Source of the DNA: a virus
Strand: one strand, 5' to 3'
DNA: 20,060 bases
IMG/VR virus record: IMGVR_UViG_3300034071_000802
Coordinates: 1 to 20,060 of that record
Notes under the pieces: generated by a model
Database searches by the model: none
The model's input: the letters and a program-made list of their open reading frames with translations, nothing else
What the model was told of the DNA's origin: nothing
Part shown: positions 1-10,441 of the stretch, piece by piece
How the letters are laid out: each line of letters opens with the position of its first letter
How positions within the stretch are numbered: position 1 is the first letter of the stretch
Program-made: the position numbers and the translations under genes

Positions 1-270
1 TTGCATCAGGCCCCAAGAGCCTCTCATTGGGTCTTCACGGTTGATTGCGTAGAGACTGCACCGAGATTCCCGGTACATGATCTTGTCTAGTTTCGGTAGT
101 TGTTGCTTTGACCAGCCTTGCTGAATAGCCATGTCCCACCATTGGGGGCATTTTGCGTCCACAGGGATAGTGAGACTTGACAGATCACGTGCCGGTGTTG
201 TAAAGAACGCTTCCATTTCATTGCTGATTGGGGTGATGATCACACCTATTGCTAGCAAGACTTTGAACAT
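1..270 (-). CDS. Lysozyme-like lytic transglycosylase (endolysin or virion hydrolase), partial
   Basis: Ninety codons are present; the gene starts at 270 and continues beyond the left edge. It probably cleaves host peptidoglycan. Residues 2-14 are hydrophobic and could be a weak signal or membrane segment. Residues 64-71 (IMYRESRC) carry the glutamate expected as the catalytic acid (E68), and residues 84-90 (GSWGLMQ) match the G-x-x-G-L-M-Q motif of the SLT/lysozyme-like fold. C41 and C71 could form a disulfide in an exported protein. A good ribosome site (AAGGAG) sits just upstream of the ATG and overlaps the end of the preceding gene, whose stop is one base away, so the two are probably coupled. 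The C-terminal half is outside the window, so further cell-wall-binding domains cannot be judged. Family assignment is fairly sure; endolysin versus virion-borne enzyme is open. Confidence 0.8.
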   Translation of the reverse strand, partial: MFKVLLAIGVIITPISNEMEAFFTTPARDLSSLTIPVDAKCPQWWDMAIQQGWSKQQLPKLDKIMYRESRCSLYAINREDPMRGSWGLMQ

Positions 271-493: not shown

Positions 494-977
494 TGAGTTC
501 GCTCGACAGTCCTTTGTACAGTCTTGACATCATGAAGAAGTTGAGCATGGCGTCTTTGAGATCGCCGCTTGATTTATCTTCATCATATATTACTTCTGGG
601 TCGTCTTCAAACCTGATTGATGATAAGAAATCTGTTCCATGTAACATTGTGAACAGTCTGACACGACGTTTTAGTGGGTGTTCTGAAGGACGTAACGCAT
701 TATCTTCGTCATGTCCGTCTTTGATTGGTGATGCCCATCCGCATGTAACGATTCCGAACTTCGTATATGGAGACAGTTCTCTGGCCATGTCATGATCTTC
801 GAGCATGTCATAGATGTCGGCGTTCATTCCGATTGGGATAGTCATTGGTGTCTCACCATTGAATGTTTCAATTGCAAACAGAATTGCTTTGTCTAGATGA
901 AAAGCATCTGTTGAAGTTGACTTGAGTGATTCGTCGATCATCCGGTCAATATATTTTAGGTCATCTAATTTTGGCAT
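486..977 (-). CDS. Hypothetical 163-aa protein
   Basis: Unrecognised soluble protein. I chose the ATG at 977 (MPKLDDLKY) rather than a start 10 codons further upstream, because a clear AGGAG ribosome site lies 10-11 bases before it and the longer start has none. The N-terminal 40 residues look helical. The middle holds TCGWASP followed by an acidic and histidine-containing loop and then HPLKRRVRLFTML, which could be a small beta-rich domain. The C-terminus is again helical and acidic. It overlaps the end of the WhiB gene by 17 bases and the next gene by 8, so it belongs to the same coupled operon. Confidence 0.7.
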   Translation of the reverse strand: MPKLDDLKYIDRMIDESLKSTSTDAFHLDKAILFAIETFNGETPMTIPIGMNADIYDMLEDHDMARELSPYTKFGIVTCGWASPIKDGHDEDNALRPSEHPLKRRVRLFTMLHGTDFLSSIRFEDDPEVIYDEDKSSGDLKDAMLNFFMMSRLYKGLSSELND

Positions 978-1254
978 TATTTTTTGCTCTCCTTGTGGGT
1001 TTACCACGGTCTAGTGTGACTCCGCCCCACACGCCACATGAATTAGTTCGTGATCCGAACTCATAACATTGCAGACGTACTGGGCATTTTGTACATATTT
1101 GTTTTGCTTTATATAAATTGTTTTGTTCTTCTTTACCATCGCCGTGCTCAGGGAACCACCATCGTGTTGGATTACCGATGCACGCTCCCTGAGTCATGAA
1201 AAAAGGCTTGTAAACATTGAACTTTTGAGCTGCAATACTAGACATCGGCACCAT
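961..1254 (-). CDS. whiB-like: WhiB-family iron-sulfur transcription regulator
   Basis: A 97-aa protein with the WhiB signature. It has four cysteines at residues 25, 54, 57 and 63 in the C-x(n)-CxxC-x5-C arrangement that binds a [4Fe-4S] cluster, then the GVWGG turn at residues 74-78, then a basic C-terminal tail (RGKPTRRAKNNAKIR) of the kind that contacts DNA. A fifth cysteine, C73, sits right before the turn. WhiB proteins bind the host primary sigma factor and alter promoter choice; phage copies are known from mycobacteriophages, and TM4 WhiB interferes with host WhiB2. The start could be residue 1 or M4 (position 1245); neither has a strong ribosome site, and translation probably couples to the upstream gene, which it overlaps by 17 bases. 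This is the clearest host indicator in the window. Confidence 0.92.
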   Translation of the reverse strand: MVPMSSIAAQKFNVYKPFFMTQGACIGNPTRWWFPEHGDGKEEQNNLYKAKQICTKCPVRLQCYEFGSRTNSCGVWGGVTLDRGKPTRRAKNNAKIR

Positions 1255-2007: not shown

Positions 2008-2940
2008 TTAGTAATAGCTTGGGTGTGTTGTTGTGATTACATCTAGTGAGTCTGAATAGTTTGCGTGTAGATCATCCCAGCAAAAACAATTTGCGAAAGA
2101 ACCACAGTACAAACATGCTTTACATGATGGACAATGAGTGTGAAGTTCGTCGTTCTTGACGACTTCACTATGTGCACATGTGTAGCACTCAAGAAGCGCA
2201 GTGTGATTGTCTAGGTCAGTCATGAATACATCAAACTGTTCTAGAACTGCATCGAACTTGAGGTCAGCTTCGTCGTCGTAGTCATCGGAAACTTTTTGTT
2301 CCCATGGTTTGTATCCATATGTTGATTCGTATCCATAGTCCCAATCGTTGTATAGTGAACCGTAAGATCCTGCACGATATGGTGCTTGCTTATACGAACT
2401 GTTAGACCACCACATGTCATTAGCCCAATGACCATCTTGCTCATTGAGAATGTAGAAGTCAAACAAAGCATCTTCGTGTGTAGTCAAGAAGACAAGTTTT
2501 GAACCTTTAGCCCACGCAGACAACTTGTTGTAGTAGTCCATGTTGTCAAGTGATGTGATACCACCGACAGCAGGCATGATGTCTTGTGCAAACACTTTAG
2601 TGTCTGAACGAGTGTCATCTTTTTGAATAGCAACTGGCAGAATGCCGTTGTGTGCGACCACAGTTGAGTTGTCATTACCCAAGAAGAATGGGTGACAGTT
2701 ATCAACAGTTTCAGAACCATGCGTTGCCCACCTGAAGTGGAACGTCGCTGGTCCTTGGTGCGTTCTGCGCAAGTCAATGAACTTGTTAGCAACTTCATCG
2801 AAGTCCATGCTGTGTGCAGTGACGATTTTCTTGCCGGTTGAAATAGCAAAACCGAAACCATCTGGATTAGAGATGGCTGCGGTTCTGAACTTGTCCATGT
2901 CTGGTGTTACATAGTCAGGAATGAATGTTAGTAAGCACAT
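2008..2940 (-). CDS. Class II glutamine amidotransferase (Ntn-hydrolase) with C-terminal cysteine cluster
   Basis: A 310-aa enzyme expected to hydrolyse glutamine and release ammonia for a partner synthetase. Features of the family (GlmS, PurF, asparagine synthetase and phage relatives) are visible: Cys2 directly after the initiator Met, which becomes the N-terminal nucleophile; HFRWATHG at residues 68-75; NCHPF at 81-85; AHNG at 96-99 (oxyanion-hole Asn-Gly); and SDTKVFAQ at 112-119. The catalytic set looks complete. Residues 180-230 are rich in Tyr, Gly and Asp. Cysteines at 252, 255, 270, 273, 276, 279, 285 and 287 form a CxxC-rich cluster, probably binding zinc, which is not part of the usual domain. 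The gene overlaps the amidoligase end by 13 bases, with its ribosome site (AAAGG) inside that gene. It could act alone as a glutaminase, but the pairing argues for ammonia supply. Confidence 0.85.
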   Translation of the reverse strand: MCLLTFIPDYVTPDMDKFRTAAISNPDGFGFAISTGKKIVTAHSMDFDEVANKFIDLRRTHQGPATFHFRWATHGSETVDNCHPFFLGNDNSTVVAHNGILPVAIQKDDTRSDTKVFAQDIMPAVGGITSLDNMDYYNKLSAWAKGSKLVFLTTHEDALFDFYILNEQDGHWANDMWWSNSSYKQAPYRAGSYGSLYNDWDYGYESTYGYKPWEQKVSDDYDDEADLKFDAVLEQFDVFMTDLDNHTALLECYTCAHSEVVKNDELHTHCPSCKACLYCGSFANCFCWDDLHANYSDSLDVITTTHPSYY

Positions 2941-3965
2941 ATTTGCCTTTCACCGAGACGAATGTTTAGACGGTCGTCAAGGATTTTGTAAGTGTCAGGT
3001 TTGGTTGCGACCCAACTACGGAATGAATTGAATGCCAGGGCATTACCTGACATAACTTGTGGTGTGCTGATTTCTTCCGTGTAATGGAAGGCTGCGTCGC
3101 AGAACTGCAGAGCGGCTTGCACCGTCTCAGGTTTGAGTGAAGGACGGAAGAACCGTAACTCCACAGTCTGCACGTTGCGCAGGTTGACAGCACAGTAACG
3201 ATCATCGTTGACTGACTCACGTTTTGCCATCTTCATGAATGTAGACCCACGTAGTGTCTCCCGCTGGCCCCAGTCGTTGAATGTGTTTAGGAATGTATCA
3301 ACATCAAATTTAGCGTATGTTGATTTCCTGCCTGCAAATTTGATTAGCTCTGTTGGGTTCCCGTAAATAAATTTGAGGAACTTGAATAGATGCTTGTCAT
3401 CTTTGAATGCAGCACGAGACATGTGAATGTGCAGTCCACATGACTTCATGTTCCATGATTCATATCCGAGGCGACTGAGCCCCTTGATGCCTTCCCATTT
3501 GAAGTGTTTCATAAAGAAACCCAATGTCGCTGGATGCGACACGATTTCGAAACCATGGTCAATTGAACCATCTTCTTTTAGGTAGACAACATTTTCGTTG
3601 CCACGATGGTTGATTGTGTTGATAACCCATTGGGCACCTTCATCAATGTCACCATCTGTGCATTCGACTTCTTGTTCCATGCCTAGATATAGCGTTGAGC
3701 GATTATCTTCGGTTATTTTGCTGTAATACGATGATGTGCCATCGTCATGTAGGAAGCTGGCGTTTGGTTTGTAACTGTAACTGTGTACCAATGGACTCCC
3801 TTCGTTTTCTTCTTCTGCCATACAATCTTCTACGAAATTGTCGTTGCAACTTTCGCAACGTACATATCCGTCGAAACGATTGCTGAGTAAGTATTCTGTT
3901 TCCATGACATCGTCACACGACCAGCATGTACCGAGATCTTCTTCTTCTGCTTCTGATCGTGGCAT
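2928..3965 (-). CDS. Amidoligase (COOH-NH2 ligase, Amidoligase_2-like) with N-terminal zinc ribbon
   Basis: A 345-aa protein matching the glutamine-synthetase/GCS-like carboxylate-amine ligases often annotated as amidoligase. The motifs are in family order: LGMEQEVE at 94-101 (metal/ATP-binding acidic residues), LKEDGSI at 129-135 and GFEIVSHP at 138-145, GLHIHMSR at 177-184, and RYCAVNLRN with TVELRFFRPSL at 256-277. It should use ATP to join a carboxylate to an amine. An N-terminal extension has CxxC at 14-17 and 37-40 plus C48, a probable zinc ribbon, followed by an acidic linker. The ATG overlaps the stop of the 45-aa membrane protein (TAATG) and has an AAGGAG site. The next gene is a glutamine amidotransferase, the usual ammonia source. 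The substrate (peptide, protein, cell-wall precursor or small molecule) cannot be read from the sequence. Confidence 0.85.
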   Translation of the reverse strand: MPRSEAEEEDLGTCWSCDDVMETEYLLSNRFDGYVRCESCNDNFVEDCMAEEENEGSPLVHSYSYKPNASFLHDDGTSSYYSKITEDNRSTLYLGMEQEVECTDGDIDEGAQWVINTINHRGNENVVYLKEDGSIDHGFEIVSHPATLGFFMKHFKWEGIKGLSRLGYESWNMKSCGLHIHMSRAAFKDDKHLFKFLKFIYGNPTELIKFAGRKSTYAKFDVDTFLNTFNDWGQRETLRGSTFMKMAKRESVNDDRYCAVNLRNVQTVELRFFRPSLKPETVQAALQFCDAAFHYTEEISTPQVMSGNALAFNSFRSWVATKPDTYKILDDRLNIRLGERQICAY

Positions 3966-7961: not shown

Positions 7962-8972
7962 ATGGCCACAAACCTTTTTACCATTGCGGTTGGTGGAGTT
8001 TCTGGGGCTGGATTAACATCCACAGAAAAAACATTTACTGTCACACGTGGTGAAACAGTCAACGCTGTAGACACGTCAGCCATCATTACGGTTGTTGGAA
8101 CTGGAACCATTGGGCCAGTTGGACAAACTGGAGCCACAGGTGCTACTGGAGCCACCGGTGCAACCGGTGCCACTGGTCCTGCAGGTACCAACGGCACAAA
8201 CGGAACCAACGGTGTTAACGGAACTGCAGCAACAATATCTGTTGGAACTGTTGTAACAGGCAACGAAGGAACATCTGCCATAATTACTAATGGTGGAACT
8301 TCTTCTGCCGCAGTATTTAACTTTACAATTCCAAGAGGAAACACTGGCGCAGGTGGTGCAACTGGTCCTACTGGTCCGCAAGGTATTCAAGGTGTTGTTG
8401 GTCCACAAGGACCTATTGGTGCAACTGGAGCTACTGGTGCAACGGGCGCCGCAGCAACCATTGCTGTTGGAACCGTATCTGCTGGACCGGCTGCTGTTGT
8501 CAACTCTGGCACAAGCGGGGCAGCAGTATTTGACTTCACATTGCAGACTGGTGCAACCGGGCCAACTGGTCCAACAGGGGCTACTGGTGCAACAGGCCCA
8601 CAGGGAATTCAAGGTATACAAGGAGATGTGGGCGCAACGGGACCGCAAGGTCCCACTGGTCCTACGGGAGCAACTGGCGCTACCGGTGCAACCGGTGCGA
8701 CTGGAGCAACAGGCCCTGGTCTAGTGGTTGGTGGAACTGCTGGACAGATTCTTAGCAAGATTGACTCGACTGATTACAACACTCAGTGGATAAACATCCC
8801 AACGATTAACGCTCTTGATGATATTGGAAACGTAAACGTTCCATCCCCAGTAAACGGTCAAGCACTTGTTTATAGCACTTCTACTTCGCAATGGATTGCT
8901 GGAACAGTTGCTACAGATCCAACTAGTAGTTCTAATTTTGCAGCAATCATGACAATGGACATAGGAGCATAA
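7962..8972 (+). CDS. Collagen-like tail fibre protein
   Basis: A 336-aa fibre. Residues 1-50 form a beta-type head resembling the preceding protein ([18 protein letters not shown]). Three collagen-type Gly-X-Y tracts follow at about 51-88, 126-163 and 197-252, rich in GAT, GPT and GPQ triplets and expected to form triple helices in a trimer. Two related 35-residue non-collagen spacers separate them: [17 protein letters not shown] and on to FNFTIPRG at 88-126, and [17 protein letters not shown] and on to FDFTLQTG at 164-197. The C-terminal 80 residues hold a motif common in phage fibres ([20 protein letters not shown], then [20 protein letters not shown]). It is likely a trimeric fibre shaft used in host attachment. 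Confidence 0.88.
8112..8717 (+). repeat. Triplet-repeat DNA coding for collagen-like tracts
   Basis: Three blocks of nine-base units encoding Gly-X-Thr or Gly-Pro-X triplets, separated by two related spacer segments. Synonymous codons vary a lot between units (for example ACT, ACC, ACA and ACG for Thr), so the protein repeat has been kept while the DNA repeat has decayed. Such tracts still tend to expand and contract by recombination. Confidence 0.8.
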
Positions 8973-9311
8973 ATGGCTATCGGAGATAGAAACGAATCAC
9001 GTCTAGGTGGGCCAATCCAACTTGGTACATCTACGACCACAATTGCTACAGCCGCAACTGGTTATGCAGAAATTATTAAACAAGTAATTATTACCAATAC
9101 GGACACAGTTGATCGAACCGTGACTTTGGCAATTGGTTCTGCAGCAACAGCTGCGAACCGTTTGTTTTCGAATCTACCAATTGGTGCCAACGACGTAATG
9201 GTGTGGGACACAGCATTGGTGTTGGCTGCTGGTGAAACCTTGCAGGGGTTGTCTGATACCGCCGCTAAGGTAACGGTTACGGTAGTAGGTTGGGAGAAGC
9301 AAACAGCCTAA
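8973..9311 (+). CDS. Virion structural protein, 112 aa, probable fibre-locus component
   Basis: A soluble, beta-rich, Ala- and Thr-rich protein: residues 33-58 (EIIKQVIITNTDTVDRTVTL and following) and the end (AKVTVTVVGWEKQTA) give an alternating strand pattern like small capsid-decoration or minor tail proteins of actinophages. No named family is certain. It follows the collagen-like fibre with no spacing, and its stop overlaps the next fibre start (TAATG), so it is made together with the fibres. There are no cysteines and no signal peptide. Confidence 0.65.
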   Translation: MAIGDRNESRLGGPIQLGTSTTTIATAATGYAEIIKQVIITNTDTVDRTVTLAIGSAATAANRLFSNLPIGANDVMVWDTALVLAAGETLQGLSDTAAKVTVTVVGWEKQTA

Positions 9312-10441
9312 TGGGAATTGACGCTGGATACGGAATTGGCTCAGTAAAGCCAGGGGTTTGCACTAGCACGACACGCCCTGGTTCACCCTATACGGGTCAA
9401 ATTATTTACGAAACTGATACCACTTTGGCAAAGGTGTGGAACGGTTCTGCTTGGGTTGATACACCTCCTGGTAAAGCAAACGTAGCGTCACCAACATTTA
9501 CTGGCAACGTGGTTCTACCATCTACAACTTCTGTCGGTGCTGTAACTGGAACAGAAATTAGTTATCTTGCTGGTATTACGTCAATGGTGCAAACACAGTT
9601 AAATGCAAAAGCACCTGTTGCCAGTCCTACATTCACTGGAACTGTTTCTGGAATAACCAAGTCAATGGTCGGCTTGGGTTCTGTTGATAATACGGCAGAT
9701 ACGGCAAAACCTGTTTCTACTGCACAACAAACTGCTCTTAACTTAAAGGCGAATGTGCATGACACATCATTTACTGGAAGCCCCCAATGCAATTTTGTTC
9801 ACGGTAACTTTTTTAGGCTAGACCTTGCTGCTGGAAATAATGGAAACGGAACTGGTAATGCTCAACTTAATTTGTGGATTAGCGAACCTGGTGCAAGTTG
9901 GACTGGTGCTGGTATTGCAAGAAATAGATTAAACTCTGCTGGCGGTTTTCCACGAGTTAATACTGGTCTTTCAGCACAAATAATTCGTTTTCCTGAAGGT
10001 GGGTCAATAGATTTTACTTGCACGAATTCCGCTGGAGGAGAAAACGCTTTTGCTTTTGACCCAAATGGTCTTGCGTACAAGGCTGGCGGTGGGTCATGGA
10101 CAGCGTTATCAGACATTCGGCTTAAGGAAAATGTTCGTGATTATGACAAAGGCACAGCAGAACTTATGCAGGTTCGTGTTCGTGAGTGGGAACACAACGG
10201 CAAAGGTGGTTTGCAGGATGGGTCTAAAGGTCTTGGTGTTGTTGCCAACGAAATTGAGTTGGTGCTTCCAAATACAGTTCATGCTTATGAAGGAAAACTT
10301 AACCCAGAAGATGAAGAAACCACACAAATCAAGGCTGTTGACCCAACAGAAATTACGTGGTTGCTAGTAAAAACTGTTCAAGAACAGCAAGCAACCATTC
10401 AGTCATTAACAGCACGTATCGAAACATTGGAAGCACAATGA
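9311..10441 (+). CDS. Tail fibre/spike with C-terminal S74 intramolecular chaperone
   Basis: A 376-aa protein. I use the ATG at 9311, which overlaps the preceding stop, rather than a frame extension starting at 9290. Residues 13-52 are an N-terminal module shared with the next two fibres (KPGVCTSTTRPGSPYTGQ, then IIYETDTTLAKVWNGSAW). Two ASPTFTG repeats (59-65 and 104-110) mark the shaft. The C-terminus from S267 (SDIRLKENVRDYDKG) to residue 376 is a Peptidase_S74 / endosialidase-chaperone domain. In this family the domain trimerises the fibre and then cuts itself off just before that serine. A terminal coiled coil spans about 349-376. The distal body (150-266) has no recognised enzyme motif, so it is probably receptor-binding rather than an enzyme. 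Confidence 0.88.
   Translation: MGIDAGYGIGSVKPGVCTSTTRPGSPYTGQIIYETDTTLAKVWNGSAWVDTPPGKANVASPTFTGNVVLPSTTSVGAVTGTEISYLAGITSMVQTQLNAKAPVASPTFTGTVSGITKSMVGLGSVDNTADTAKPVSTAQQTALNLKANVHDTSFTGSPQCNFVHGNFFRLDLAAGNNGNGTGNAQLNLWISEPGASWTGAGIARNRLNSAGGFPRVNTGLSAQIIRFPEGGSIDFTCTNSAGGENAFAFDPNGLAYKAGGGSWTALSDIRLKENVRDYDKGTAELMQVRVREWEHNGKGGLQDGSKGLGVVANEIELVLPNTVHAYEGKLNPEDEETTQIKAVDPTEITWLLVKTVQEQQATIQSLTARIETLEAQ

Follow-up and report, generated by a model that had tools for sequence, protein, structure and literature searches.

The window, a 20,060-base virus record from IMG/VR, carries on its minus strand two overlapping genes that appear to encode an amidoligase (AL) and a class II glutamine amidotransferase (GAT). 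The locus raises two questions: whether the two proteins act as one enzyme and, if they do, what that enzyme modifies.

Two overlapping genes and their predicted products

The open reading frames (ORFs), the 13-base overlap, and the complete motif sets described in the original prediction are all present, at the following positions.

2928-3965, minus strand: AL, 345 amino acids (ORF, PF12224 match, phrog_16683/22302, AF2 model, PDB matches)
3846-3926, minus strand: LIM-like zinc finger of AL, residues 14-40, C14-x2-C17 ... C37-x2-C40 (Cys conservation)
3153-3677, minus strand: AL active-site stretch, from E97/E99 through H179/H181 and R213 to E269/R271 (residue conservation)
2946-2951, minus strand: Shine-Dalgarno-like GAAAGG for GAT, inside the AL gene, 5 nucleotides (nt) upstream of the GAT ATG (sequence)
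2928-2940, minus strand: 13-nt overlap of the AL end and the GAT start (sequence)
2008-2940, minus strand: GAT, 310 amino acids (ORF, PF13230, phrog_25883, AF2 model, PDB)
2602-2937, minus strand: GAT active-site stretch, from C2 through R70-T73-H74-G75 and H97-N98-G99 to D113 (residue conservation)
2068-2187, minus strand: Cys-rich, zinc-ribbon-like C-terminal tail of GAT, from C252 (CxxC count)
961-1254, minus strand: WhiB-like regulator in the same operon (PF02467, E = 1.8e-11)
1-270, minus strand: start of a lytic-transglycosylase-like gene, truncated at the window edge (identified via a full-length relative)

The overlap of the two genes suggests that their translation is coupled. AL matches Amidoligase_2 (PF12224) with an E value of 4e-4 and 20.8 bits, below the gathering cut-off of 22; its homolog L008 exceeds that cut-off (45.2 bits), and AL matches phrog_16683/22302 strongly, with E values down to 5e-31. 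GAT scores similarly against GATase_4 (PF13230; E = 5e-4, 19.5 bits, below the cut-off of 23), which its relative L011 exceeds with 28.7 bits, and it strongly matches phrog_25883 (E = 1e-36). Structure prediction, which had been proposed for both proteins, gave confident AF2 models (pLDDT 91.3 and pTM 0.83 for AL; pLDDT 85.5 for GAT) with the expected folds among their PDB matches. A Foldseek comparison of the AL model with the PDB returned YbdK first (1r8g, E = 2.9e-5), then GmaS (5.8e-4), glutamine synthetase (GS), Dop/PafA, and GCL, with a clear fall to noise past these carboxylate-amine ligases. The best match of the GAT model was the GlmS glutaminase (1xff, E = 1.4e-7), with PurF and EgtC also found, and the GAT sequence profile likewise finds GlmS (E = 3.6e-10). 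Because TM-scores against PDB entries were low, about 0.37 for AL and 0.53 at most for GAT, the fold assignments rely on E values and motifs.

Viral contigs were scanned separately with AL and GAT alignments, and the best 80 loci were kept from each scan; the pattern scan used a 10-sequence alignment, as the profile of 84 sequences was too diverse. Removal of duplicates left 138 distinct pairs, a few of them from phage records. We looked among these for loss of catalytic residues as evidence against the original prediction and found those residues invariant or nearly so. The AL motif set comprises G95-x-E97-x-E99, D132, E140, H179-x-H181, R213, and E269-x-R271. E97, E99, D132, E140, H179, R213, E269, and R271 are invariant wherever aligned (136-137 sequences), and H181 is nearly so (133 of 136). 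We take the ExE, HxH, and ExR motifs to be the metal and nucleotide set of GS, with E97/H179/E269 and E99/E140 presumably mapping to its two metal sites, judging from what is established for GS. The GAT set consists of C2, which is exposed once Met is removed, R70, T73, H97-N98-G99, and D113; D113 occurs in 136 of 137 sequences and the others in 138 of 138. Motifs and predicted structures thus support AL as a carboxylate-amine ligase of the glutamine synthetase (GS/GCS) fold and GAT as a protein of the class II (N-terminal Cys) Ntn glutaminase fold.

Both proteins also carry putative zinc-binding segments. C14, C17, C37, and C40 of AL are each at least 90% conserved in 84 homologs, and the profile of this N-terminal finger resembles LIM domains weakly (E = 0.002). 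At least two CxxC motifs occur at the GAT C terminus in 98 of 138 homologs, and this tail co-occurs with the AL finger (Fisher p = 3.5e-5, uncorrected for phylogeny). Some actinophage-like relatives encode a second AL-like gene upstream of AL (L017:3145-3957, L023:4699-5514, L095:3617-4423, L096:3134-3940, and L109:3742-4392) that keeps most metal/nucleotide motifs but has neither the zinc finger nor the R213 motif.

The WhiB-like gene suggests an actinobacterial host. Short genes of unknown kind separate AL-GAT from the WhiB/transglycosylase end of the operon, and the plus strand carries phage structural genes, including a large terminase and a portal (Pfam, PHROG). A collagen-like Gly-x-Thr repeat protein is encoded at 7962-8972 and, beyond it, a tail-fiber-like protein with a Peptidase_S74 (endosialidase chaperone) domain at 9290-10441. 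Pfam gave no match for the 1-270 fragment; the full-length relative of this gene matches SLT_3 (E = 1.7e-6). Within the window's actinophage-like lineage, a WhiB-type neighbor cluster is present at 63 loci, and SLT-like genes in two sequence clusters share the operon of the pair at 27 and 33 loci. No transglycosylase adjoins the pair in the mycobacteriophage Marvin, Methylophilales phages, gut phages, or Clostridial elements. The linkage is therefore confined to one lineage, and we dropped it as proof of a cell-wall function.

Coupling of the pair across viruses

All 138 distinct pairs have AL before GAT on one strand, usually overlapping or separated by less than 100 nt. These pairs are kin by descent, many from one actinophage-like lineage, and do not represent 138 independent events. 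Among the best 80 loci chosen by AL similarity alone, GAT adjoins AL in 79, and the sole exception ends 33 nt past AL at the contig end. AL is missing from two of the best 80 GAT-selected loci: one is only 752 nt long, too short to judge, and the other (L159) is a fragment of 6.4 kb that includes portal and terminase genes. AL and GAT distance matrices correlate with r = 0.91, to which shared ancestry contributes, against a maximum of 0.13 in 999 permutations. The agreement in order and strand and the distance correlation are thus far beyond what chance would be expected to give in these sequences, and the best-80 scans support a near-obligate coupling in the window's subfamily. The co-occurrence that the original prediction had asked about thus extends across phages, and AL and GAT rarely occur alone.

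The rare solo copies are AL in Clostridioides difficile phages, GAT in Bifidobacterium phages, and one other GAT. C. difficile phage AR1086-1 has AL and no GAT in 130 kb, in the related plasmid record pCd11_2 no GAT adjoins AL, and Bifidobacterium phage BP742P1 has GAT with no AL within its partial 32-kb record. A gene for a DUF1653 protein precedes AL in AR1086-1 (L008) and pCd11_2 (L255); both also have an RNA 2'-phosphotransferase gene close to AL, and AR1086-1 has an RlaP-like gene as well.

The pair had already been annotated in Marvin, a cluster S mycobacteriophage (gp105/gp106), and its relatives. As in the window, AL adjoins GAT in the same order, with about 30% (AL) and 38% (GAT) identity by tblastn; unlike in the window, the genes are 79 nt apart and AL has a longer C terminus. 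Marvin gp105 (L005:4001-5362) is the amidoligase, though annotated as a glutamine amidotransferase domain protein, and gp106 is the glutaminase; the misnaming is repeated in other cluster S records. Methylophilales phages MEP401 and MEP402, for which one paper reports amidoligase and GATase genes (PMC10580990), resemble the window in that the two genes are neighbors, keep its order, and overlap, here by 10 nt. They differ in their longer AL (548 amino acids), their host group, and their DNA-replication neighborhood, with the pair upstream of the replication genes. According to PMC5498523 and PMC10580990, Iyer et al. (2009) predicted a peptidoglycan-modification cassette in phages phiEco32 and LUZ24. 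These have AL and then GAT, adjacent and in the window's order, but unlike the window's lineage they also encode a COOH-NH2 ligase and GGACT. They are very distant: the AL profile matches phiEco32 at 6e-9 and LUZ24 at 3e-4, and the GAT profile matches phiEco32 (5e-7) with no match in LUZ24.

These additional genes count for the main rival to an amidating enzyme. AL might instead work like YbdK or GCL and couple a gamma-glutamyl carboxylate to an amine or an amino acid, and GAT might trim gamma-glutamyl products as an EgtC-like hydrolase. GAT may not supply ammonia, because its PDB matches include EgtC, a gamma-glutamyl hydrolase of the same fold; the AL matches to YbdK, GCL, and GmaS fit as well. 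Phage C75C1 encodes class II GAT-like and GGACT (gamma-glutamyl cyclotransferase) domains in one fused protein (L170:6001-6897; GGACT E = 2.7e-21), with AL about 850 nt upstream, which ties AL-GAT to gamma-glutamyl chemistry. The equivalents of H74 and H97 are altered in this fusion. Against such trimming, no glutaminase residue is missing from GAT, which matches the GlmS/PurF glutaminases best. Further, COOH-NH2 ligase and GGACT were found neither in Marvin nor in any of 30 long actinophage-like records, incomplete ones perhaps among them, in searches positive for LUZ24 and phiEco32; the window itself is a record of just 20 kb. Since the 30 relatives did not yield these genes, we rejected a larger gamma-glutamyl cassette in the window's lineage, and we consider the gamma-glutamyl reading rather unlikely.

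Pairs on Clostridial elements and a mycobacterial plasmid

When genomes were scanned with AL, the loci came mainly from Ruminococcus and other Clostridia. At 80 Clostridia-dominated loci, a class II GAT accompanies AL in 74, nearly always just downstream. It belongs mostly to a more GlmS/PurF-like subfamily, which means that AL has another class II glutaminase as its partner there. Of the 80 loci, 63 have genes for mobility functions (relaxase, NikA-like, resolvase, or integrase); by type, resolvase genes occur at 39, relaxase at 31, NikA-like at 28, and integrase at 15. A DUF960 gene adjoins AL at 53, often preceding it. Pfam analysis of 82 other neighbors gave no capsid, portal, or terminase family among 25 listed of 70. 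Phage-like recombinase and tail-lysozyme genes occur at single Clostridial loci, and some of these elements may be phages. Some Ruminococcus loci have genes for short hydrophobic proteins or DUF4314 between AL and GAT (e.g., L199:1156-1347 and L201:6827-7048). We rejected these small ORFs as a conserved peptide substrate because they belong to several unrelated families.

An intact pair is also found on the Mycobacterium abscessus plasmid pGD21-2, whose listed genes include conjugal transfer, FtsK/SpoIIIE, and type VII secretion functions, with no capsid, portal, or terminase among the genes in its incomplete gene table. The annotated start of its GAT (L254:4953-5624) omits the N-terminal MCILSY; an upstream in-frame start restores the catalytic Cys. 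Judging from their gene content, the Clostridial mobilizable elements and pGD21-2 seem to make no virus particle.

This distribution bears on the proposal, made in the original prediction, that the target could be a virion protein, which would then be amidated during assembly. In gut phages (L011 and L159), the pair is located between portal-like and scaffold/capsid genes, an arrangement that would suit a virion target. Elsewhere, the pair adjoins DNA replication genes or sits in a separate non-structural region, as it does in some other phages. The related pairs of Clostridial elements with relaxase genes and of pGD21-2, which has no annotated virion genes, argue against a dedicated virion-protein substrate and weaken the proposal, leaving it very unlikely in our estimation.

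The PafA/Dop fold matches prompted us to consider amidation of Pup. We rejected this reading, since AL matches YbdK and GS at least as closely as PafA/Dop, and since Clostridia and, in distant form, phages of gammaproteobacteria have the pair; to our knowledge, neither Clostridia nor the hosts of those phages have Pup. In another reading, the pair would serve nitrogen metabolism as an auxiliary metabolic module whose product is an amide or a gamma-glutamyl metabolite; this was proposed for a Planctomycetes phage that encodes amidoligase, GAT, GGCT, and glutathione synthase (PMC10945688). Zinc fingers, present on AL and often also on GAT, would better suit the binding of a macromolecule, and the pair is found in widely differing hosts and elements and occurs several times in one Ruminococcus genome. 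A small-molecule role for AL-GAT therefore appears distinctly improbable. We also rejected a known anti-phage defense protein, as PADLOC gave no match for six proteins of the AL-GAT group.

Candidate reaction and target

Because a GS-fold ligase occurs with a near-obligate glutaminase, AL-GAT is most simply read as a glutamine-dependent amidating enzyme. We somewhat favor the view that AL and GAT are its ligase and glutaminase subunits and that the target is probably a host macromolecule. From the sequences, it is natural to infer, as the original prediction did, that ammonia from glutamine would feed an amide-forming ligase. In the proposed complex, GAT would hydrolyze glutamine via its N-terminal cysteine and pass the ammonia to AL. 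With ATP and Mg, AL would turn a carboxylate into an acyl phosphate and this activated form into a primary amide; the carboxylate is probably the gamma-carboxylate of a glutamate or one on a similar side chain. The zinc fingers on AL, and often also on GAT, may help to bind the target or a partner. We count against this reading the solo AL genes of C. difficile phages and phage-like plasmids and the AL homologs that, in the wider amidoligase family, pair with gamma-glutamyl cyclotransferase instead of GAT (PMC5513430 and PMC11253131).

Two known peptidoglycan-amidating systems offer comparisons with the proposed amidating enzyme. Actinobacterial peptidoglycan amidation uses a class II glutaminase in LtsA/AsnB-type diaminopimelate amidation, where a single chain carries an asparagine-synthetase-type ligase domain. 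AL-GAT shares the glutaminase class and differs in having two genes and a predicted GS-fold ligase. MurT-GatD combines a Mur-ligase-like ligase with a class I (triad) glutaminase; unlike it, AL-GAT has a predicted GS fold and a class II Ntn glutaminase, and on these folds the two systems would be analogous, not homologous. Like the proposed AL-GAT enzyme, MurT-GatD of Staphylococcus aureus consists of ligase and glutaminase subunits, and it amidates a peptide carboxylate, that of peptidoglycan glutamate (PMC3267633).

The target is more likely to be a host component because related pairs occur on elements seemingly without virions. Our first choice of substrate would be a peptidoglycan stem peptide or precursor, and our second a host protein. 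Peptidoglycan comes first because of the MurT-GatD precedent and because phage papers propose peptidoglycan or cell-wall modification (PMC5498523, PMC10580990, and PMC11318856). The peptidoglycan target of the original prediction thus keeps its place as first candidate, while the argument from the neighboring transglycosylase is weak, that linkage occurring in one actinophage-like lineage only. A broader proposal is that phages, mobilizable elements, and plasmids alike carry AL-GAT as general cargo, with which they amidate a macromolecule of the host (cell wall or protein) recognized through LIM-like zinc fingers, for instance to exclude competing elements; we think this rather unlikely.

The locus had been singled out as a poorly characterized system. 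This stands insofar as its function is at the stage of a proposal, but the pair has already been annotated and discussed in several phages, and the window holds a divergent, minimal new example of it. New here are the related pairs that rumen Clostridia carry next to genes for relaxase, NikA-like protein, and resolvase and the pair on a mycobacterial plasmid that has conjugation genes; the literature passages covered, with the 2009 source paper outside their scope, contained no mention of such pairs.

The pair is widespread and tightly coupled and its catalytic residues are intact, while the same passages go as far as proposing a function. Because plasmid-like elements with no annotated virion genes also have it, the search for a substrate narrows to host components. 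The cultivable cluster S mycobacteriophages of Mycobacterium smegmatis, with the two-gene form, lend themselves to a clean test. If peptidoglycan or a host protein were shown to be amidated, a long-standing prediction would be settled.
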